From Alphaproteobacteria bacterium (GTDB lineage: Bacteria > Pseudomonadota > Alphaproteobacteria > Rhodobacterales > Rhodobacteraceae), in NCBI GenBank assembly GCA_029289325.1, contig JARFTV010000008.1, forward strand, positions 51,634 through 105,461: a stretch of 53,828 nucleotides of DNA. Direction: 5' to 3'. This document shows, piece by piece, positions 33,685 to 48,941 of this stretch (the first letter of the stretch is position 1; each line of letters begins with the position of its first letter). The notes below the pieces were generated by a model. The model was not told the DNA's origin, did no database searches, and saw nothing but the letters and a program-made list of their open reading frames with translations. Both the position numbers and the translations under genes were made by a program.

Positions 33685-33760
33685 GCCCAGATAGCTCAGT
33701 TGGTAGAGCAGCGGATTGAAAATCCGCGTGTCGCTGGTTCGATTCCGGCTCTGGGCACCA
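33685..33760 (+). tRNA. tRNA-Phe (anticodon GAA)
   Basis: Full 76-nt cloverleaf with encoded CCA. The acceptor GCCCAGA pairs with TCTGGGC, the D-arm is TAGCTCAGTTGGTAGAGC, the anticodon arm is CGGAT-TGAAAAT-CCG with the GAA anticodon, and the T-arm is TCGCTGGTTCGATTCCGGC. The island begins at the next base, so this is its presumed attachment site. Confidence 0.97.
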
Positions 33761-33971: not shown

Positions 33972-35114
33972 TCAGTACCCGAAGTCGAAAAGGCGTGATG
34001 AATATCTCTCGCTCAGGCAGGCAATATCGTCCCCACACTCGTCTCGCCGCTTCAACCAGCTTCTTTGTGTATTCAGGAACTCCTGCGCTTCCTGTCCCGC
34101 CGAAGCCCTCTTGTAGTGAAAGTAGACGTTCGCCATCACACGATCCAACGTCCATAGGCTCTTTGATGCACACAAGGCTTGTTCGGTCGGCGACACCGCA
34201 AGAGCGCAGTCAAAGCTGGGACCCGTGACACCTGTTTCTAGACCGTCAGCTCTCAGGTTCGCTTCGGCTTGGATACACCAGCGAACTGCACCCTGCTCAG
34301 CGATCTGGGATTTCGTCATATCCACGTATTCCCCAAGAAGGGGAACGAATATTTCACCGCCGAACATCTCATGGCCTGACTTCAGGGTAGCTTCGCCACG
34401 AGAGCGCAGGAACGCGGGATCAACATTCAGCAGCTCGGAGCAAGTGAACGACAGAGCCATGTACTCTGTCATCTGCCGCGCAATGCGACGCGGGGTAGGA
34501 CGATCAGCAGGTGTTGAAGTCTGAGCTGCGTCTTCGATGAAGACGTCTATATCTAGCGCCTGGGCTATCTCAGGTGTTATTGGAAGCAAGGGTTCGTCGG
34601 GATTTGCCGTCGTAAAGTATTCGATAGCTCGTCTGCTGAGCCCAACTTCGTTGAGGTAAGCGCCGATAGTGGCATTCCCGACACCCGAGGCGCCAACTAC
34701 GACTGTTCCGTCTGAGCTGTTCACCAGGTTGTAGGCGGCATGCACACTGATATCTGCGTCTGGCGACATATATCGGCGAACACCAGATACCCACATGACC
34801 GCGCAGATGGAGTGGCACCCAGGGCCATCAAGAACGAGTGTTGTGAAGCCACGGATAGCGATCTCAGAGCCTATCGAAAGACCTGTTTCAACATCACCAC
34901 CGGGGGACTCCAAGAAGACGCTGGCCCGCTCCGCTTGCTTGGAGAGTTCGAAGAACTTGAAATCATCACCCTTCACAATCTCTCCGCGGATCATGATCAT
35001 TTTCTGACCTGGGACTAGGCCATCAACCATGTCGAACTGGGCAGCGTGCGCCGCCACAGGAAAACAAACTAAAATCAGAGTATTAAGATTGGTAAGCAAG
35101 CGAATGAACTTCAT
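33972..35114 (-). CDS. Exported ClpP-like serine protease domain fused to an LprI-like domain
   Basis: Exported protein of 380 aa. A Sec signal peptide ends near residue 24 (AAHA|AQF). Residues about 30-150 resemble the ClpP/crotonase fold: FLESPGGDVETGLSIGSEI, then GPGCHSICAVMWVSG with candidate nucleophile S102, then DISVHAAYN with candidate H125. Residues about 295-380 match the LprI/DUF1311 pattern: DCALAVSPTEQALCASKSLW, LDRVMANVYFHYKR and RSWLKRRDECGDDIACL. LprI domains inhibit lysozyme in other bacteria. The combined function is unknown. It is the first island gene after the tRNA. Confidence 0.72.
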   Translation of the reverse strand: MKFIRLLTNLNTLILVCFPVAAHAAQFDMVDGLVPGQKMIMIRGEIVKGDDFKFFELSKQAERASVFLESPGGDVETGLSIGSEIAIRGFTTLVLDGPGCHSICAVMWVSGVRRYMSPDADISVHAAYNLVNSSDGTVVVGASGVGNATIGAYLNEVGLSRRAIEYFTTANPDEPLLPITPEIAQALDIDVFIEDAAQTSTPADRPTPRRIARQMTEYMALSFTCSELLNVDPAFLRSRGEATLKSGHEMFGGEIFVPLLGEYVDMTKSQIAEQGAVRWCIQAEANLRADGLETGVTGPSFDCALAVSPTEQALCASKSLWTLDRVMANVYFHYKRASAGQEAQEFLNTQRSWLKRRDECGDDIACLSERYSSRLFDFGY

Positions 35115-35315: not shown

Positions 35316-38300
35316 TCAGTTGCGCGCGATCTTACGGAAAATGAGTTCTGGCAGGACCGTCTCCCACTCCTCATGCTTGATGTACGTCTGGTAGCGCTCT
35401 TCATTGTCGGATTTGCACCAGCGCACGATCGCCCCAACCTTGCCAGATACCAATGCGGTTCCCTCGGGTGGCGCCCAGTTTCCAGCCATACGGCCAAGTG
35501 TTCTGCGGTCGCGGTCAAGGATCAGCCACTTCTCATCACGCATTTCAAGCGTCACCGGGTCTTCAACTTTAGCAGCGGCGATTGCGGCATGTGTCGGGTT
35601 CGTCTGTGGAAGCCGACCAGCGTAGGAAAGATCAACTGAAGTCTGATCGGGCACTTGATACTGGTCCGGATCCTGGAGATCGATCCGCCGTGGCAGCTCC
35701 ACCTTGCGTAGGACCTCGCTATCGCTGTCTGCCCGCACGAAAGCATGTTCCCCGCTTGTCACCACAGCAAGGCTACGCCTGGCTCGGGTCATGGCGACGT
35801 AGAATAGACGGCGCGGTGCCTCGCCATCCTCGCCTTGAGAGAGCGCCTTCCAGCCACCGTTCAAGATGACAACATGGTCAAACTCGAGCCCCTTAGATCG
35901 GTGCGCTGTCAACAGCAGCAGTCCCCGTTGCGCGCCACGGACATCTCGAGCCCATTCAGCAAGCCACTCGATAGCATCGGGCACCGGGATAGATTTCTTG
36001 CCAAGCTCCCGCGCAAGGTCCGCTATGCCCTCCGCAATGAGGTCAACCCAACGGTTCGACGGCTGCTCGTTCAGCACGTCGAGTAGGTCCTGAATGGAGA
36101 ACATCTCTGTCTGACGTTTGCGTAAGCCTGCCACGAGCTGCTGCATCTCCCGCAAACGCCAGACACTTGGGAGCTTCTCGTTGGCCATTTCGACGGGTAG
36201 TCCGAGCCTTTCCGCATACGCGCGTACCGGGCTGAGCCGCCGCCAGTCGCGAGATATGATCGCCGTGCGCGCCCAGCTGAAGCCGGGGTCGAGCCTTGAG
36301 ATCCGAACCAGCTCGTCGACTGCCGCTATTGCCTGTGCGACGTCGTCAGCTGCTACATCCAGGAATTGCACGCGCCCTTTGCCGACCGGGTCATAGCCCG
36401 CCATCACGCCGCCGCCCGGGTCAAGGCTCCGTATCTTGTCCACCGTGATGGCGTGCCCGGATTTCAAGCGACCGCGAGCAGGTTCGATGACCTGATTGGC
36501 GGCGTCAATGATGTAGCGAGTTGAGCGGTAGTTCTCGGTGAGGAACCTAGGTTTTGCGCGATAGTCTTCCTCGAACTGGCGGATGAACGAAATCGACGCA
36601 CCGGCGAAAGCATAGATATTCTGGTCGTCATCACCCACGGCGAAGAGGCTAAGACGCTGATCAGGGTCTTCAAGCGACCGCCCGGCTACAGCGGCAATCA
36701 GCGAGTATTCCTCGGGGCCTATGTCTTGATACTCGTCCACAAGAATCCAGCGGTATCCTTGAATAAGCGCCTCGCGTTGTGCTTCGGCTTCTGATCGGCT
36801 CAACCCCTCGCCATTGATCTGGCGCACTGCCTCGGTGATGATCCCGTCAAAGTCCCGCTTTTCGGTGGTGTCGCCCGCAAAGCTTGCTCCCACAATTCGC
36901 ATGGCGAGTGCGTGACACGTCGACACCGTCACGCGAGCAGCATCCTCACCAACCAAGTTGCGCAGACGAGCGCGGATTTCAGCTGCAGCATGCCGATTGT
37001 AGGTAAGCACGAGGATTCCGTGCGGGTCCTCTCGCTTCACGCGTAGCAAGTAGGCGATGCGATGGACTAGTACCCGTGTCTTTCCAGAACCCGGTCCGGC
37101 CAACACCAGTACGTTCGTCTCTTCGCGGTCGTCTGCGACGATCTCCTGCTGGACCGGATTGCTCAGATCATCGACGATCTGCTTCCAAGCCTTCCCGGTG
37201 GTCTGGCGGCGAATTTCGACGCTGCGGCCAGGCATCCAGCGCTGCAAGAAACGGTCCTGATCTAGTGTGAAGTAATCTTCAGCGAGGCGAACCGCCTCAT
37301 CGATTTGCTCCAAACCTCTCTCTGCATAGGCCGCCATAACATGGGTTTGGAGTGTCTGCTCCCGATAGTGCTCGTCAAGCGGCAGGAAGTCTTTCTTGGT
37401 GAAACCTGCGTGGCCAGGCTTCAGGTAGATCGTCATTGCAGAGCGGAAGACGGTTAGACCTTTGCCTAGCGTCATCACCTGTTGCTCGTGCAGCCACAAG
37501 AGTGCGCGCTCCATAAGCTTGGTCATGTCCTTAACGCCTGACGACTTGACGAGCGCGTCCCCGGTCAGCACCCCCAGCAGGTCTCCAACAGTCGTTTCGA
37601 CTTGGACATCCTTGCCGCGCGCACCTGCGGGTGCCTTGCCTATCAGGAACTCAAGTAGCTTCTCGGCTGCCATCCAGCGAACGGAGGCCGTCTGGTCCAC
37701 GATCCGCCAGGAACGCTGTAAGACTACCTCTAATGTCTTGTTCGACAATTTGCGCAGGCGAATGTTGCCACGTCCGCCGCCACTGTCGCGCCCGTCCCGT
37801 TCAATGCTTCGCAAGAGGCGGTCAAGAATGTGCGGGCTCGCGTCCTCGTGTCCTTCGCCACGCAAGATTTGGCAGGCCGCTGCAAGGTCAAGCTGTGCGC
37901 GGTCGCCGATATCCGCCTCGGGCGCTAACTCACGCATCCGCGCAATAAGGGACTTTTCCAATCGCACCGCCCGAACCAGGCGTTGGCGCGATTGGTTCTC
38001 GACCCCGATGTGCACAGCGACGGTGATGGCAATGTCATTACGTGCGATACCTAGGGTCTCGAGGTCAGCCATCGCCTTGGTCAGCGCTTGGTGCGAAAGC
38101 CCGCTGATCCCTGTCAGCTCGTCCGTGGAAATGCCCTGGTCTGCGGGCGTATTCATTACGTGTTCCACAATGGCCAAGAGCTGATCACGGCGCGCCTGAG
38201 TTATCTCCGCCCCGTTCAGGCGAGCTTTGGCTTCCTCAAGCGTGCGCACCAGAAGTGAGGACGGAAAGACCTGCACCCGGTTTTCTTCGCGAGAGACTAG

Positions 38301-40457
38301 CGCCGCCTCTTCAAGCCAGGAGACGGCTGTCTTGACGCGCGTATCATCGGTGGCGCTGTCGCGCACGAACTCTCGCTCCTTTTCTTCGCGCACGATTTCG
38401 CCGGGCGTTGCGACGACCTTGCCGCTGTTGCGGGTGTGCTCGTCGATACGACGCAGGGCCTTCAGGATAGCCCCGATCTCGTGGCGTTGGAGGCGCGAGC
38501 GCGCAGTAAGCGTGAACTGCCGCTCAACATCGTCAGTATGGTAGAGCAGTACGCATTCCGCAGGGGCACGGTCACGACCAGCCCGACCCGCCTCTTGCAA
38601 GTAGTTCTCCAGTGATCCTGGGATATCGGCATGGACGACGAGACGGATATCGGGCTTATCGATACCCATGCCGAAGGCGTTTGTTGCCGCGATCACCCGA
38701 AGGTCGCCTACACGAAAGCGCTCTTGAACTGTCCGCTTCTCTTCGGCCGTCAGACCGGCATGAAAGTGCTCGGCCGCAACCCCTTGGGTTTTCAGGAAGG
38801 TGGCGACACGTTCAGTTTCCTTCCGGGTCGCACAGTAGATAACAGCCCCCGATCTATCTCCAACAGGCAGGCGCTCTGAGATTGCGGCCCGGATATCGCC
38901 AAGTTTGCTTTCCTTGCCCGTCGCCAGCACCGTGAACGTGAGATTGGTGCGGGTGGCACCGCCGTCGAACAATCCTAGTTCGACGCCAAGACGCTCCCGG
39001 AAATGCTCTGTTATGTCACCGACCACCTCAGGCTTGGCTGTGGCAGTCAAGCACAACACAGGCGCAGAGTTTGCGTCGCCTGAGAATTCGCGAATGAAGC
39101 GGGAGATGTAGCGGTAGTCAGGCCGGAAGTCGTGCCCCCACTTCGAGACGCAATGTGCCTCGTCCAACACCCAAAGTCCCACTTCGCGCTGCGCGAGGAC
39201 CGAACGGATTGAGACGCTGCGCAATTGCTCGGGGGAGATTAGCAGTATCGCCGCCTGGCCCATCCGTACCCGGTCAAGGCCATCCTGTCGCTCTGGCATC
39301 GAGAGCATGCCGTTGATGGTCACTGCAGACGAAATCCCTGCACGCTCCATCCCTTGCACTTGATCGGCCATAAGTGCCACCAGCGGAGAAATGACCACTG
39401 TCAGGGCACCAGTCTTTTCGTAGAGGCTGAGTGCGGGCACCTGGTAGCAAACAGACTTCCCGGTGCCAGTGGGCAGGATACCAAGAACGTTCGCGTGTCG
39501 CATGGCTTCAGCAACGATGACTTCCTGCAAAGGTCTCCCGTCGCTATGCGACGGTTGGGGGCGGAAACCGTCGAAACCAAACCACTTCTGGAGCGAGCTG
39601 ATGGGGTTGTTCATCTTGGCGCACCAGTCGCATGCGCTTTCGCCGCAGTTGGTGTCGCGAAGTTCACGCACGATGAGGGCGGCCTGAGGAAAGCTGGCCC
39701 GCACCCAAGGCGGCATCACCGACTCCCCGCCCGCTACAGAGACCCAGGCAAGCGCATAGGCCATCGGCCAGCCCATTTTCGGGTCTGACAGGCTATCAAT
39801 GACCGTCCCAATCTGCGCGCCGCACGCCTTGCCAGCCAGCAACGATTTGATTGCAGACAGCGCAAGGGCTCGATCCGGAACTGGCGATTTGCGGATATGT
39901 TTGAAGACGGCGTCAAAGCCTGATGCGCGATCCATGCGCGTTGCAAGGAAGTGATAGGCCAGTAGGGTTTCGGGCGACTGTGTCTCGACCTCGACCAGCG
40001 CATTGATCTGGTTCTCTAGAACCTCAAAAACCAAACGGGCGTCACGCTCGGGGTCGTTCAAATGCCCCGCCTGCAAACGTCCATCCTGATAGTGCTTCAC
40101 AAGGTGGTGGTAAGGGTTACGAGGAAAGGCGAGCGGATTGAGCCAGAGCGTATCGATGGGTGCGGCCATTCTGGCGGCGAGCCGTGGGCGCTTGGCCAGA
40201 AGATACTCGATATCATGGCGCAGAATATTGTGGCCGATCACATGCGGCGTCTTCTCAAGCGCTTTTTCGAGTTGGTCGAGCCCCTGCTTGATCTGTCCTT
40301 TGGAGGCTACAACTGCGGGTCCGTTCCCAAACCGCACCGCAGCCATGTCGAAGATCTCGGCGGTCTTTGGGTTGACTTCGAGATCAACCGACAAACACTG
40401 CTCGAGCAGGGGCCGCTTATCTTCGGCCTTCGACCTCAGGAAGTTCAGAAAAGCCAT
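35316..40457 (-). CDS. DEDD exonuclease - RecQ helicase - UvrD helicase fusion
   Basis: A 1713-aa single-frame fusion of three nucleic-acid enzymes. Residues about 20-150 are a DEDD-type 3'-5' exonuclease, with D25/E27 (SVDLEVNP), D82 (GHNILRHDIEYL) and D139 (NDPERDARL). C271-x4-C276-x2-C279 may bind metal. Residues about 320-650 are an SF2 RecQ core, with Walker A LPTGTGKS (328-335), DEAHCVSKWGHDFRPDYRY (432-450) and QEAGRAGRDR (621-630). Residues about 1110-1640 are an SF1 UvrD/PcrA core, with AGPGSGKT (1119-1126), VDEYQD (1239-1244) and DDDQNIYAFAGA. Probably acts on invading or recombining DNA. Known defence systems could not be matched. Confidence 0.88.
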   Translation of the reverse strand: MAFLNFLRSKAEDKRPLLEQCLSVDLEVNPKTAEIFDMAAVRFGNGPAVVASKGQIKQGLDQLEKALEKTPHVIGHNILRHDIEYLLAKRPRLAARMAAPIDTLWLNPLAFPRNPYHHLVKHYQDGRLQAGHLNDPERDARLVFEVLENQINALVEVETQSPETLLAYHFLATRMDRASGFDAVFKHIRKSPVPDRALALSAIKSLLAGKACGAQIGTVIDSLSDPKMGWPMAYALAWVSVAGGESVMPPWVRASFPQAALIVRELRDTNCGESACDWCAKMNNPISSLQKWFGFDGFRPQPSHSDGRPLQEVIVAEAMRHANVLGILPTGTGKSVCYQVPALSLYEKTGALTVVISPLVALMADQVQGMERAGISSAVTINGMLSMPERQDGLDRVRMGQAAILLISPEQLRSVSIRSVLAQREVGLWVLDEAHCVSKWGHDFRPDYRYISRFIREFSGDANSAPVLCLTATAKPEVVGDITEHFRERLGVELGLFDGGATRTNLTFTVLATGKESKLGDIRAAISERLPVGDRSGAVIYCATRKETERVATFLKTQGVAAEHFHAGLTAEEKRTVQERFRVGDLRVIAATNAFGMGIDKPDIRLVVHADIPGSLENYLQEAGRAGRDRAPAECVLLYHTDDVERQFTLTARSRLQRHEIGAILKALRRIDEHTRNSGKVVATPGEIVREEKEREFVRDSATDDTRVKTAVSWLEEAALVSREENRVQVFPSSLLVRTLEEAKARLNGAEITQARRDQLLAIVEHVMNTPADQGISTDELTGISGLSHQALTKAMADLETLGIARNDIAITVAVHIGVENQSRQRLVRAVRLEKSLIARMRELAPEADIGDRAQLDLAAACQILRGEGHEDASPHILDRLLRSIERDGRDSGGGRGNIRLRKLSNKTLEVVLQRSWRIVDQTASVRWMAAEKLLEFLIGKAPAGARGKDVQVETTVGDLLGVLTGDALVKSSGVKDMTKLMERALLWLHEQQVMTLGKGLTVFRSAMTIYLKPGHAGFTKKDFLPLDEHYREQTLQTHVMAAYAERGLEQIDEAVRLAEDYFTLDQDRFLQRWMPGRSVEIRRQTTGKAWKQIVDDLSNPVQQEIVADDREETNVLVLAGPGSGKTRVLVHRIAYLLRVKREDPHGILVLTYNRHAAAEIRARLRNLVGEDAARVTVSTCHALAMRIVGASFAGDTTEKRDFDGIITEAVRQINGEGLSRSEAEAQREALIQGYRWILVDEYQDIGPEEYSLIAAVAGRSLEDPDQRLSLFAVGDDDQNIYAFAGASISFIRQFEEDYRAKPRFLTENYRSTRYIIDAANQVIEPARGRLKSGHAITVDKIRSLDPGGGVMAGYDPVGKGRVQFLDVAADDVAQAIAAVDELVRISRLDPGFSWARTAIISRDWRRLSPVRAYAERLGLPVEMANEKLPSVWRLREMQQLVAGLRKRQTEMFSIQDLLDVLNEQPSNRWVDLIAEGIADLARELGKKSIPVPDAIEWLAEWARDVRGAQRGLLLLTAHRSKGLEFDHVVILNGGWKALSQGEDGEAPRRLFYVAMTRARRSLAVVTSGEHAFVRADSDSEVLRKVELPRRIDLQDPDQYQVPDQTSVDLSYAGRLPQTNPTHAAIAAAKVEDPVTLEMRDEKWLILDRDRRTLGRMAGNWAPPEGTALVSGKVGAIVRWCKSDNEERYQTYIKHEEWETVLPELIFRKIARN

Positions 40458-40649: not shown

Positions 40650-41897
40650 TTGGCCAAACTCAACGACGACACGCATGTGCTGATGGACGGGGCCGTCAAG
40701 GTCTACAAGCGCTCCAAAACCAAGCGCTGGCAGGCGACCTTCCAGATCGGCGGGCGTTGGGTGAGGGTCAGCACAGGGCAGCGTGATCTTGAGGACGCCA
40801 AGCGTGTCGCCCATGATCAGTACCTCGATTACAAGTTCCGCGAAAAGCACGACTTGCCGGTAGTGACCAAGCGGTTCGAAGACGTAGCGAACCTGGCGAT
40901 CAAGGACATGCAGCGGCAGCTGGACGCGGGTGCAGGGCGCAAGGTCTACAAGGACTACATCCAAGCGATAAACGCGTACTTTATCCCCTTCTTCGGCAAA
41001 ACCCACATCACCAGTGTCGACACGGACATGATCCGAGAGTTCAACGACTGGCGGGTCAAAAAGATCGGGCGTGAACCCAAGGCATCCACCCTGAACACGC
41101 ACAACTCGGCCATGAACCGTGTGTTCGCGGAAGCTGTGTCACGCGGCTATCTCACATCGGGCAAGGTGCCGCTGCTGGCCAACAATGGCAGCGCAGGCGG
41201 TCGCAGACCAGACTTCAGCGTCGAAGACTACCGCACCATGATCCGCAAGTTTCCATCATGGATCGAAGCGGGCAAAGCAGGCAAGTCGCGCGACATGCGC
41301 TACCTGCTTCGCGACTATGTGCTGATCCTTGCCAACACCGGCATGCGGCACGGCACAGAGGCGCAGAACCTACGCTGGCGGCACGTGCATGTGTTCACAG
41401 AGAAAGGCCTGCAGTACGTCGAACTGCACCTGCACGGGAAGACTGTGCCGCACGACGCCATCGGACGGGCTGGCACCATCAAGTACCTGCAGCGCATTCA
41501 CGCTAGAACAGAGGCGATCAAGGACATTCCATTCGAGCAGATGCTGAAGCGGAAGCTGGACTTGCCCGTGTTCTGCCTGCCCGATGGCACTGTGAGCCTT
41601 AACTTACGGCAGACCTTCAAGGCGTTTTTGAAGGATGCCAACCTGCTCAAATGCCCCAAGAGTGGCCAGGACCGCACGCTCTACAGCTTGCGGCACACCT
41701 ATGCCACGTTCGCGCTGGTTAAGGATGGCATCGACATCCACACTCTGGCCAAGCAGATGGGCACATCGGTGGGAATGATCGAAAAGCACTACAGCCACCT
41801 GACACCGCGCATGAAGAAGGACGTGCTGACCGGCAAGCGCTATGAGCTGACGCGGGCGCAGTACGAGGCGCAGTTGGCGGAAGCGCAGGAAGAATGA
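40650..41897 (+). CDS. Tyrosine-type site-specific integrase
   Basis: Full-size phage-type integrase of 415 aa, the likely driver of integration at tRNA-Phe. An N-terminal arm-binding domain (about 1-60) is followed by a SAM-like core-binding domain (about 65-160). The catalytic domain contains TGMRHGTEAQNLRW (Arg), LRHTYATFALVKDG (His-x-x-Arg type) and EKHYSHLTPRM (nucleophile Tyr). The only usable start is a TTG at 40650, with GGAG 8 bp upstream; an ATG further in would cut the arm domain. Confidence 0.9.
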   Translation: MAKLNDDTHVLMDGAVKVYKRSKTKRWQATFQIGGRWVRVSTGQRDLEDAKRVAHDQYLDYKFREKHDLPVVTKRFEDVANLAIKDMQRQLDAGAGRKVYKDYIQAINAYFIPFFGKTHITSVDTDMIREFNDWRVKKIGREPKASTLNTHNSAMNRVFAEAVSRGYLTSGKVPLLANNGSAGGRRPDFSVEDYRTMIRKFPSWIEAGKAGKSRDMRYLLRDYVLILANTGMRHGTEAQNLRWRHVHVFTEKGLQYVELHLHGKTVPHDAIGRAGTIKYLQRIHARTEAIKDIPFEQMLKRKLDLPVFCLPDGTVSLNLRQTFKAFLKDANLLKCPKSGQDRTLYSLRHTYATFALVKDGIDIHTLAKQMGTSVGMIEKHYSHLTPRMKKDVLTGKRYELTRAQYEAQLAEAQEE

Positions 41898-43247: not shown

Positions 43248-43826
43248 TTACTCTCTATGCATTCTGTCAATAAGATAATGCAGGCATAGCATGGTCACAA
43301 TGAACAAGCTCGACAGAAACCATGTGTATACGAGCCACCAAGCCCCTGTGATAAACTTTCTGACTGGCTCGGCGATATTTGAACTTAGATCGACTGCTGC
43401 CGAAATGGACCCAAGAACAAAGATGAAGATGGACAGGAAGGCACAATATCCAAGTAAAATAGACAGGAACCTTCTTCGCGTAAGCGCTACTTCTTCACCA
43501 CTCCAACGCTCCTTCATTCTAGGAGCGTCGCCAGACATGATACTGTTAAGGTTCTCACTAGGGAAACTAGTCACAGCAGCAAGGGCTGCGATGTAGAATC
43601 CGATCAAAACTCCCATGAGCGTTGTGGCACTTGAAATGAACGTCCCGAGCTTGATAGTGACTACCTCTTCAGACATGATCCTATACCCAAGCAAAATAGC
43701 TATGGATGTAATGGTTGGGAACACATACTGAAAATAGCGTAGGTCAGGGCTGCGAAGTCGAAAAAATGAGAACGCCGTGAATAGCTTGGCGATATTAGCG
43801 AAGAATTTTCTAAATTTCGCTCTCAT
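43248..43826 (-). CDS. Four-TM membrane protein, second gene of a soluble/membrane pair
   Basis: Hypothetical inner-membrane protein of 192 aa. Hydrophobic segments lie at about 33-50, 60-86, 120-143 and 160-185, with a positively charged N-terminus and a short cytosolic loop around 90-118. The start overlaps the stop of the upstream gene in TAATG, so the two are coupled. Pairs of a soluble sensor and a small membrane protein are typical of abortive-infection systems. No family was recognised. Confidence 0.7.
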   Translation of the reverse strand: MRAKFRKFFANIAKLFTAFSFFRLRSPDLRYFQYVFPTITSIAILLGYRIMSEEVVTIKLGTFISSATTLMGVLIGFYIAALAAVTSFPSENLNSIMSGDAPRMKERWSGEEVALTRRRFLSILLGYCAFLSIFIFVLGSISAAVDLSSNIAEPVRKFITGAWWLVYTWFLSSLFIVTMLCLHYLIDRMHRE

Positions 43827-44806
43827 TATCGCGCCTCGAGGGCTCTTGCCTTGGCTCTGAGCTTTAGCAGAACATCTTCGCGCAGTCCATCGTATCGCTG
43901 CGTGAGCGGATGATCAAAGTCACCGATTATCTCGTTTAGGTAGAATGCGCTTTCGAGCGCTTCGGTCGTTGCATCATCAATTTCTTCAGCTTCAGCGGTA
44001 ACCGACGCAGTCTTGATTTGACCATTTTCCGCTTTTATCCGAACCAAGAGTTGGCTTTTTTCCGCCTCCACGTCTTCCCAACCACGCAAAAACCTTAAAG
44101 CTTTCGCAACGAGACGCTGGGCGCCATCAGCGTCAACTCGGCGTTTGACAGTCCAGTGAACTTCATGAATGGTCTCACTAATTAGATCATCTTCATCCAC
44201 GCCACCATCCAAGCGCTCACTTCCAACAAACTCGAGTTCCTGGATCGTCCCAGATGTCATTGCCTCGCGCAGGGTTTTGGATTGATAACCTTCGAATTCA
44301 ACCGTTCCCCTGTACTGTCTTTCTCTTCCATTAACCTCGAACGTTTTTTTAACGCCTGGATCGTTGAGAACCCAGTTGAAGTGAGCCTTCAAGCTCGAAA
44401 AGTGAATATTGGGAACCTTTTCAATCAGAATGAGATGCTTGCCAAGCGCATCTGGAGCCTTTTGAATGATTACATGGGCGCAAAAGTGCCCGCCCTCGCT
44501 GTCTCGCTTCCCGCCATTTCTCGCGTTCAAGGTATCAAAGTCAATGAAGACAACATCGCTCACCTTCTTGTCGCCAGCCTGCATGAGGAGCGAATAGTAC
44601 TCGCCGTCGTCTACAATGGGGTTGCACCACATGCGACGATCATCATCTTGAAATGAACGCATTCCACCAGGCAGTCCTGCTTTCGCGCCCAATGCAGCAA
44701 TAAGATCGGTTAGCAGGAAGCTTGGCGCTCGTTCCGGAGCAGTCTTTTGGTTGCGTATGGTGAGTTTGCCGATAGACACCCAGCGATATGAAGTAGGAAG
44801 AGCCAT
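43826..44806 (-). CDS. Hypothetical soluble protein, first gene of the pair
   Basis: Hypothetical 326-aa protein without membrane segments. It opens MALPTSYRWVSIGKLTIR. The middle has VFIDFDTLNARNGG and KHLILIEKVPNIHFSS, and the C-terminus is acidic and helical. It does not show the DUF4868 features of KwaB that I know. The start at 44806 is a choice: a longer frame begins at 44989, but those extra 61 residues look non-coding. No clear ribosome site. Not recognised as any family. Confidence 0.6.
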   Translation of the reverse strand: MALPTSYRWVSIGKLTIRNQKTAPERAPSFLLTDLIAALGAKAGLPGGMRSFQDDDRRMWCNPIVDDGEYYSLLMQAGDKKVSDVVFIDFDTLNARNGGKRDSEGGHFCAHVIIQKAPDALGKHLILIEKVPNIHFSSLKAHFNWVLNDPGVKKTFEVNGRERQYRGTVEFEGYQSKTLREAMTSGTIQELEFVGSERLDGGVDEDDLISETIHEVHWTVKRRVDADGAQRLVAKALRFLRGWEDVEAEKSQLLVRIKAENGQIKTASVTAEAEEIDDATTEALESAFYLNEIIGDFDHPLTQRYDGLREDVLLKLRAKARALEAR

Positions 44807-44992
44807 GAACCGATAGTACCATTGTTGATCTGCTTCTAGCAGGGGTTGCGTCTGACTACAGTCTTCCCTGAAAGAATGTTGAATACCAGTCACTTCTTTC
44901 GTTTGTCTTGAGGCCGCGAGTGCCCGCGTCTGCAGGCAATCTAGCGGCCATGCTGCATTATGGCCGGCGTGTGAACTCGCCAAGGTCATGTG

Positions 44993-45562
44993 TCACAGCA
45001 GCTCCACTGCACTGCGCATCTGGTCGCTGTTCACGTCGATGTAGCGCTGCGTTGTCGAAATATGGCTGTGTCCTGCCAGTGCGGCAAGCACCCTCACTCC
45101 CACCCCATTGTTTGCCAGCCGAGTGATGTAGGTCCTACGCCCGCTGTGGCTGCTGGCGTCTTTGAACCCGCAGGCTTTGTAGATGTCGAGGAAGAGCTGG
45201 CACATGGTGTTGGCTGAGAAGTGTCCGCCCTTCTGGCTAGCGAAAAGAGGATGGGAACACAGTCTTTTGACACAGTGGCGATCACCATAGTCCTCAAGCG
45301 CGCGGCGCAGCCTCTGGTTCAGGTACACAGTGCGACGCTCGCCGCCTTTGGTCTGTGCTGTGCCCAGGATGAACTGCTCGCGAACAGCACCCTCTGCGTC
45401 GAATACGTCGCCCACGGTCAGCGAGGCAATCTCCTTCGCGCGAAGCCCGGCATAGAAGCTGACCATGACAATGGTCTTGTCCCTGAGCGGATGACGACGC
45501 GTGCTGCAGTACTGTAGTACACGACGCAGCTGGGCTTCGTTCAGTGTTTGCGCTTGCCGCAT
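44993..45562 (-). CDS. Catalytic-domain-only tyrosine recombinase
   Basis: Tyrosine recombinase of 189 aa with only the catalytic domain, the size of FimB/FimE-type invertases. The active site is complete: R41 in YAGLRAKEIASL, S-H-S-G-R-R-T-Y (His-x-x-Arg), GHSHISTT (His) and the closing QRYIDVN (Tyr). No arm or core-binding domain is present. It lies upstream of the soluble/membrane pair on the same strand. It may invert or excise a small segment rather than the whole island. Confidence 0.82.
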   Translation of the reverse strand: MRQAQTLNEAQLRRVLQYCSTRRHPLRDKTIVMVSFYAGLRAKEIASLTVGDVFDAEGAVREQFILGTAQTKGGERRTVYLNQRLRRALEDYGDRHCVKRLCSHPLFASQKGGHFSANTMCQLFLDIYKACGFKDASSHSGRRTYITRLANNGVGVRVLAALAGHSHISTTQRYIDVNSDQMRSAVELL

Positions 45563-48227: not shown

Positions 48228-48941
48228 TCAGCGTTTGAACTGTGTGATCGAAAGATTGCCACCAAGCGTGGTCAGCCCGTTTACATGCGTCGATCCGGTC
48301 CCAGGCGACTGATGCATGGCCTTCAGATCGATAGAACTGTCTTCCAGCCATTCCAAGAAGTCGCGTGCGCTGCCCTCGAATTCGCTGAGCAGCATTTGCA
48401 CCTGTCGAAGGTCCAGCCGGTACCCCTCCTGTTCCATAATGTGCTGCGCTCGCGCCTCCCAATCCTGCACCAGAGGTCGTTCAAGATGCACTTTCTTGAA
48501 GCGATCACGGAATGCTTCCTCCAGCTTGTGCAGGTTGTTGGTTGTGCAGATCAAAAGCCCACCCAGCCCGTCGTCGATCACCTTTCGCAGAGCGCGCTGG
48601 GCATTACGGTCAAGAAAGTCGACTTCATCGATAACAAGGCCGTGGCTCGTGAAACCAAGAAACGTTTGAGCGCCGACTATTGACGGCAAGTTGTTTATGA
48701 AGTCGACAGTCATGCCTTGTGCGTGGTGGATTTCGCTCCGGGCACCATCAGTGCCGACGCCAAGACGGCTTTCGAGAATGATGCGCGCCGCCTCTGACTT
48801 ACCTGAACCGGGAGGGCCATAGAGCATCAGATGCTTGCTCGCCGTGCCATTGGCATAGTTTTGGACGACAGACCTGTGCTGCGGATCGCGGAACACGAGA
48901 TCATTGACAGTGAGAGGGCGGTACTTCTTCGAAAAGGTCAT
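48228..48941 (-). CDS. RFC/T4 gp44-like AAA+ clamp-loader ATPase
   Basis: AAA+ ATPase of 237 aa resembling clamp-loader small subunits such as T4 gp44 and archaeal RFC-S. It opens with KKYRPLTVNDLVFRDP. Walker A is GPPGSGKS (42-49), Walker B is IDEVD (104-108), and sensor 1 is TTNN (about 134). The DRF segment at about 145 lies where an arginine-finger SRC motif would be, but with different residues. It lacks the usual collar domain. No sliding clamp gene was seen nearby. Suggests a replication module in the element. Confidence 0.8.
   Translation of the reverse strand: MTFSKKYRPLTVNDLVFRDPQHRSVVQNYANGTASKHLMLYGPPGSGKSEAARIILESRLGVGTDGARSEIHHAQGMTVDFINNLPSIVGAQTFLGFTSHGLVIDEVDFLDRNAQRALRKVIDDGLGGLLICTTNNLHKLEEAFRDRFKKVHLERPLVQDWEARAQHIMEQEGYRLDLRQVQMLLSEFEGSARDFLEWLEDSSIDLKAMHQSPGTGSTHVNGLTTLGGNLSITQFKR

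Follow-up and report, generated by a model that had tools for sequence, protein, structure and literature searches.

Enzymes of the RecQ, UvrD and DEDD kinds are well-established players in DNA repair and replication. In the known families, RecQ and UvrD motors translocate 3'-to-5', whereas DEDD exonucleases act by trimming 3' ends, the DEDDh enzymes using a general-base histidine five residues before the last aspartate. An exonuclease followed by a RecQ helicase on one chain is the domain order of eukaryotic WRN (Bifunctional 3'-5' exonuclease/ATP-dependent helicase), whose exonuclease belongs to the DEDDy type and which has no UvrD motor. Among defence systems, Gabija is encoded by two genes, with a UvrD-like helicase and an OLD-type nuclease, whereas SauUSI-like type IV enzymes place a nuclease and an SF2 helicase on one chain, both from families other than those found here. 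Nhi has one helicase motor, and its domains are unlike those of the protein described here. Nhi is described as a single anti-phage protein with nuclease and helicase activities (PMC12904381). The opening of the abstract of a study of Bacillus subtilis DinG presents an XPD-like helicase joined to a DEDD 3'-5' exonuclease and mentions no RecQ and UvrD cores (PMC12525004). Two further papers name RecQ in their references alone (PMC9122126, PMC13316683). No description of an exonuclease-RecQ-UvrD fusion surfaced among the papers listed by text searches of the open PMC library.

The window, by which we mean the whole 53,828-nucleotide stretch of DNA analysed here, contains such a fusion. A sequence-only reading had reported a single uninterrupted 1713-codon frame at 35316-40457 without giving its strand; we confirmed the frame and placed it on the minus strand. 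It encodes a protein of 1713 amino acids (P0001) in which a predicted N-terminal DEDD-type exonuclease is followed by a RecQ-type SF2 helicase and then a UvrD-type SF1 helicase. The motifs assigned to the three cores are all intact and where they had been placed: D25/E27, D82 and D139 in the exonuclease, LPTGTGKS, DEAH (residues 432-435) and QEAGRAGRDR (621-630) in the RecQ core, and AGPGSGKT (1120-1127) and VDEYQD (1240-1245) in the UvrD core. One residue number had to be changed, as the RecQ Walker A lysine, given as K335, is K334.

We set the borders of the putative 3'-5' exonuclease ourselves, at residues 13-160 (39978-40421, minus strand), using the alignment, residue counts, a profile match and a structural model. 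The N-terminus has no Pfam match. A 29-row profile of this region matched PDB chains named exodeoxyribonuclease III weakly (best E 2.8e-4), and DEDDh chains and DNA polymerase chains appeared at E 0.26-0.95. To count residues we used a 59-row alignment made of the window copy, 28 rows of alignment A2 and 30 loci from the host's bacterial family; its rows were selected by length, and one genome (G154) occurs twice. The four acidic residues of a DEDD enzyme are present, with D25 in 58 of 58 rows, E27 in 57 of 58 (one has Gly), and D82 and D139 in 59 of 59; a single row is gapped at both D25 and E27. In motif III, the position five residues before the last Asp is Asn in 56 of 59 rows and Ser in 3, instead of the His typical of DEDDh enzymes. 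The conserved D/E/D/D set and the weak profile match thus support a DEDD-type exonuclease. The PDB matches listed for an AlphaFold model of residues 1-690 (pLDDT 83.0), at least 50 in number, are all RecQ-type helicases, so the identity of this domain is sequence-based and not structure-based.

Behind the exonuclease lies a linker (residues 161-286; 39600-39977, minus strand) that the AlphaFold model shows as helical. Four of its cysteines are conserved across the 59 rows (window 39621-39824), C212, C271 and C276 in 56 each and C279 in 58, and they could form a metal site. In ordinary RecQ the metal site is on the opposite side of the helicase core.

The RecQ-type core occupies residues 287-660 (38478-39599, minus strand) and includes R625/R628 in addition to K334 and the DEAH box, as judged from Pfam, NCBIfam, a structure match and the alignment. 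Pfam domains above cutoff are DEAD at 308-478 and Helicase_C at 536-629, and further along the N-terminal UvrD domain from 1100 and its C-terminal counterpart at 1513-1567. The core passes the RecQ-family cutoff, a subfamily cutoff, of NCBIfam TIGR00614 (299.7 bits vs 219.8), and the best PDB matches of the 1-690 model are the RecQ catalytic cores 4tmu and 1oyw. It also carries an aromatic-rich loop. However, the protein does not reach the recQ equivalog cutoff of TIGR01389 (353 vs 640.2 bits), has no Pfam match at E 0.01 to the RQC, HRDC or RecQ zinc-binding domains, and is joined to an exonuclease and a UvrD motor, all of which set it apart from known RecQ family helicases. With WRN it shares a DEDD-type exonuclease and a RecQ helicase on one chain, but not a recognizable RQC/HRDC part, and it differs in the UvrD motor and in the Asn of motif III. 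The middle region (residues 661-1090; 37188-38477, minus strand), delimited with Pfam and the AlphaFold model, is likewise without an RQC or HRDC Pfam match.

The UvrD-type helicase extends over residues 1091-1575 (35733-37187, minus strand), with K1126, DEYQD, GDDDQ and R1558 identified by Pfam, structure match and alignment. It scores 144.8 bits against PF00580 (cutoff 23) and 52.0 bits against PF13361 (cutoff 25.6), and a model of residues 641-1713 (pLDDT 80.7) is most similar to UvrD/PcrA/Rep (2is1, 1pjr, 1uaa), with a Foldseek E of 1.2e-23 for the UvrD part against 2is1. Gabija GajB models match this part as well, as do GajB structures, which come lower in the list. Membership in Gabija was rejected, as no GajA was found in the nine neighbouring ORFs scanned; so was membership in Dpd, since the DpdF model NF041063 scores 202 vs 550 bits and those nine ORFs hold no other Dpd protein. 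For PsyrTA, in which a RecQ-like PsyrT has a partner gene, the PsyrT model matches residues 311-673 only, and Nhi is not among the best 25 of 84 PADLOC matches. Neither those 25 matches (PADLOC 2023) nor the best 25 of 50 NCBIfam matches include a full-length one; those listed cover single helicase cores only. The sequence-only reading, which could not match the gene to a named defence system, was borne out in this respect.

We next consider whether the three cores are maintained as one protein. Residues D82, D102, D139, K334, D432, E433, K1126, D1241, E1242 and R1558 are invariant in the 59 rows, and dN/dS is 0.02-0.22 per domain wherever computable among five close homologues, values that are rough because many synonymous distances approach or exceed saturation. 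In 37 of the 48 carrier genomes sampled from the host's bacterial family, its own included, the gene is a single open frame of 1690-2000 aa. The 30 same-family homologues that we fetched (40-84% identical) were picked from those with long frames. Ten carriers have shorter frames (G548, G398, G350, G482, G342, G447, G308, G389, G301 and G453), which may be contig ends or broken copies, one with a stop, and in the one other carrier (G304) a weak match lies inside a 2507-aa frame. Some copies in the class sample contain stops or are divided among several frames or contigs (G279, G288, G286, G034, G185); G279 and G288 count as interrupted, as does G308 of the family sample. Broken copies therefore exist, as for many accessory genes, and the window copy is whole. 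Separately, a Pseudanabaena copy (L047 9758-14377) is missing the final part of its UvrD core and adjoins a transposase.

A homologue search, which the sequence-only reading had proposed, recovered a family, and the fusion is accordingly not unique to this genome. It occurs in 48 of 295 genomes of the host's bacterial family (about 1 in 6) and 15 of 299 genomes of its phylum (about 1 in 20), and by our reading about 10 of 289 genomes in the class sample have family-level matches; no match is present in G478, which belongs to the host's genus. Relatives with 25-67% identity are found on records from Alpha-, Gamma- and Epsilonproteobacteria, Cyanobacteria and Bacteroidota, and further ones on contigs labelled Verrucomicrobia, Clostridiales and Campylobacterales, many of them metagenome bins. 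In 19 plasmid records a single place covers 80% or more of the protein, and several annotated plasmid records label members "RecQ family ATP-dependent DNA helicase". Thirteen viral contigs encode relatives, 10 of them in a frame of at least 1581 aa. Of 129 phage records with a match, none reaches 80% coverage of the protein, and the reading as a phage gene was rejected. Additionally, the host carries separate RecQ-like and UvrD-like genes, and these, together with the patchy presence, led us to reject a housekeeping helicase as the main reading; the possibility that the protein is a common housekeeping helicase found outside islands was not borne out by the family and phylum counts. We conclude that the fusion gene is accessory.

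The proposal that the gene lies in a mobile island was also supported. A tRNA-Phe gene (33685-33760, plus strand) ends in a 45-bp sequence (33716-33760) that is repeated perfectly 31.6 kb away, outside the window, at 116912-116956 of contig C12 (L130 16913-16957; extended coordinate 65279-65323). G+C is 0.560 between the two copies of this tRNA-Phe 3' end and 0.676 on the left-hand chromosome. These data support an integrated 31.6-kb island bounded by the tRNA-Phe repeat. The island encodes a tyrosine integrase divergent from the fusion gene (40650-41897, plus strand), whose Pfam Phage_integrase match (E 1e-5, 25.8 bits) is slightly under the cutoff of 27.1, and a second tyrosine recombinase (44993-45562, minus strand; Phage_integrase E 3.2e-31). 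Restriction genes had been placed in the island, and type I genes are indeed there, but mostly just past the right edge of the window, where ORFs match Allochromatium HsdM and HsdR and N6_Mtase. In two other genomes, G492 (L170 6604-12047) and G339 (L174 6943-12444), the fusion gene follows the same chromosomal genes, at a distance of about 300 bp from tRNA-Phe, and this site may be a hotspot. A second copy of the repeat was not found in the stretches fetched beside L170 or L174, and the window integrase has no match in either. At E 1e-8 it is unmatched throughout the other loci of the family that were tested (L038-L073, L161-L190), and together with the other island genes tested it is unmatched beside other fusion copies, except for one distant recombinase match in L045. 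A link to a single integrase was therefore not seen.

Neighbouring genes hardly recur among the 30 same-family loci, where the largest cluster spans 5 loci and the next 3, and none is a constant partner. The 3-locus cluster (L171, L181, L182) is one protein family, and its L182 member matches 7clg (SauUSI) at E 2.6e-87. In 40 genomes hand-picked from the 48 carriers, and used also for the N6_Mtase and DruE tests below, the PADLOC model mREase_IV PDLC03659 (SauUSI-like type IV restriction) has 11 matches, of which 4 are within 5 kb of a fusion-family gene against 0.06 expected (P 2.5e-7, uncorrected). The model was picked post hoc from the neighbour scan, and multiplying by 5027 models gives about 0.001. 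The four genomes are G439, G460, G565 and G561; in G561 the neighbour is a second fusion copy that occupies a 479-aa frame. This genome has extra exonuclease-domain matches beyond its full gene (L206, G561:C1:3268000-3287000), one of them in the 479-aa frame beside the SauUSI-like gene. Of 39 matches to N6_Mtase, a marker tested before the neighbour scan, 3 lie within 20 kb against 0.51 expected (P 0.014); leaving out the genome of the window, the count is 2 of 38 (P 0.087).

Individual loci provide further examples. Druantia DruE, represented by about 7 genes across 6 genomes, is 2.7 kb from the fusion gene in one of them, G462, and other fusion copies are near PD-Lambda-4_A (L161), PDC-S37/Hhe (L050), DRT UG29 (L060), CRISPR I-D (L039), type I restriction (L045) and a type II methylase (L067). 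A defence gene could be pinned to the locus in at least 7 of the 33 first-set loci (L039, L045, L050, L060, L062, L066, L067). There is a Fic motif in the neighbourhood of L061, and directed checks on 20 large neighbours gave matches in 3. By eye, a copy 84% identical to ours (L180) adjoins type III restriction-like genes and one 82% identical (L172) adjoins ATPase and HNH-type genes. The annotations of L046 and L048 contain no defence gene.

The defence-island enrichment that the sequence-only reading had suggested checking was found in part: the SauUSI-like family is close in 4 of 11 cases, while the N6_Mtase signal is weak and the PADLOC counts are not significant. For the latter we used 221 of 309 neighbour ORFs within 6 kb at 33 loci (set 1) and 91 of 153 ORFs of at least 200 aa within 4.5 kb at 29 of the 30 same-family loci, with L170 left out (set 2), both trimmed by hand. 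Controls were 219 ORFs of at least 130 aa lying no more than 6 kb from ordinary recQ genes (22 of 40 loci); they come mainly from other phyla, and their span is wider than that of set 2. At E 1e-20, 95 PADLOC families matched among 91 fusion neighbours and 80, 11 and 121 among 88, 65 and 68, compared to 3 families for 108 control neighbours and 9 for another 111; because the models are redundant, these tallies are not protein counts. Counted by distinct protein, which gives bounds, matches occur in at least 9 of 91 fusion neighbours and at most 13 of 219 recQ neighbours (P 0.16), or 11 of 219 if redundant models of one family share a protein (P 0.09), neither being significant. The control neighbours also have defence-type matches, including a type II/IIG methylase (L101) and the PDC-S48, PDC-M37B and DolB models. 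Apart from the SauUSI-like association, the tests for defence enrichment are thus weak or not significant.

Taken together, the observed architecture, conservation, mobility and company of defence genes are best explained by an accessory, horizontally moving, single-protein nuclease-helicase that acts against foreign DNA, an account to which we give somewhat better than even odds of being right. The recurrence of relatives near defence genes suggests, without proving, a one-gene weapon of this kind. Of the one-gene anti-phage or recombination-control system proposed at the outset, the accessory triple fusion, the island, the lack of a constant partner in 30 loci and the defence neighbours all stand, while the anti-phage function itself is something we infer. 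Against a role in defence are the weak N6_Mtase and PADLOC statistics, the defence-free loci, the interrupted copies and the Asn that replaces the DEDDh His. The main rival is a mobile enzyme of DNA repair or recombination, the equivalent of WRN in bacteria, which would process the host's stalled forks or broken ends and ride on islands because extra repair is useful. The WRN make-up of exonuclease plus RecQ fits this, as does a Bacteroides record with the fusion gene a few genes from deoxyribonuclease IV, and DinG, likewise a DEDD exonuclease joined to a helicase, is implicated in replication stress (PMC12525004). Patchy presence, neighbours that differ even at 82-84% identity and the SauUSI-like association are unusual for a repair gene, and the host already has its own RecQ-like and UvrD-like genes. 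We consider this rival unlikely, though a serious contender.

A gene for maintenance of the mobile element, which would aid replication or recombination of its own island or plasmid or exclude rivals and not defend the cell, would account for the 19 plasmid records, the 13 viral contigs with their 10 long frames and an Aliarcobacter copy that adjoins plasmid ParA and ParB genes. The family keeps to no constant type of element, however, the island genes tested are unmatched beside other copies save for the distant recombinase in L045, and no matching phage record reaches 80% coverage; we consider this improbable. That sequencing or assembly error joined separate genes, which the sequence-only reading had raised against itself, or that the domains are remnants, could draw on the copies elsewhere that are interrupted or cut, but the long single frame in 37 of 48 carriers makes a joining error very unlikely, and with the retained active-site residues and low dN/dS it was rejected, leaving an artefact of either kind a negligible chance.

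Returning to the single-protein defence that we prefer, a more specific and tentative version, which we think has rather less than an even chance, is an unnamed, widespread form of single-gene immunity. Here a 3'-5' exonuclease and a pair of 3'-to-5' motors, each from its own superfamily, would act as one machine to dismantle invader replication forks, making it a compact bacterial WRN-plus-UvrD counterpart for defence. In the preferred account itself, since the motors would run 3'-to-5' and the exonuclease would trim 3' ends, the protein would load on forks, flaps or 3'-tailed ends, which are abundant in replicating phage and plasmid DNA. One motor would open the DNA while the other strips it or keeps moving, and the freed 3' end would be passed to the exonuclease. 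Nascent strands would be destroyed in this way, leaving the invader unable to replicate or recombine. Both the polarity and the substrate assumed here are extrapolated from the known families. If the defence reading is correct, one chain couples opening and degradation of invader DNA, making separate subunits unnecessary for defence, and it would become possible to test whether one polypeptide couples SF1 and SF2 motors. It would also add a system present in about one sixth of the family genomes and one twentieth of the phylum genomes sampled, with no full-length PADLOC 2023 match among those listed.

Other genes of the island may be of interest in their own right. PADLOC reports a candidate pair, PDC-M53 (B then A; 43248-44989, minus strand), that is separate from the fusion system and of which neither gene has a Pfam match at E 0.01. 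A DUF262 protein (L130 10671-12794, plus strand) is related to 9jfl and weakly to SspE, and is a possible defence gene. A small AAA protein (48228-48941, minus strand) resembles the N-terminus of clamp-loader gamma/tau, far under the NCBIfam cutoffs. Exported-looking proteins are encoded near both island ends (window 33972-35114, minus strand; L130 12798-13865, plus strand), the similarity of the second being judged by eye only, and one of the two has a weak Clp-protease match (E 0.0057).
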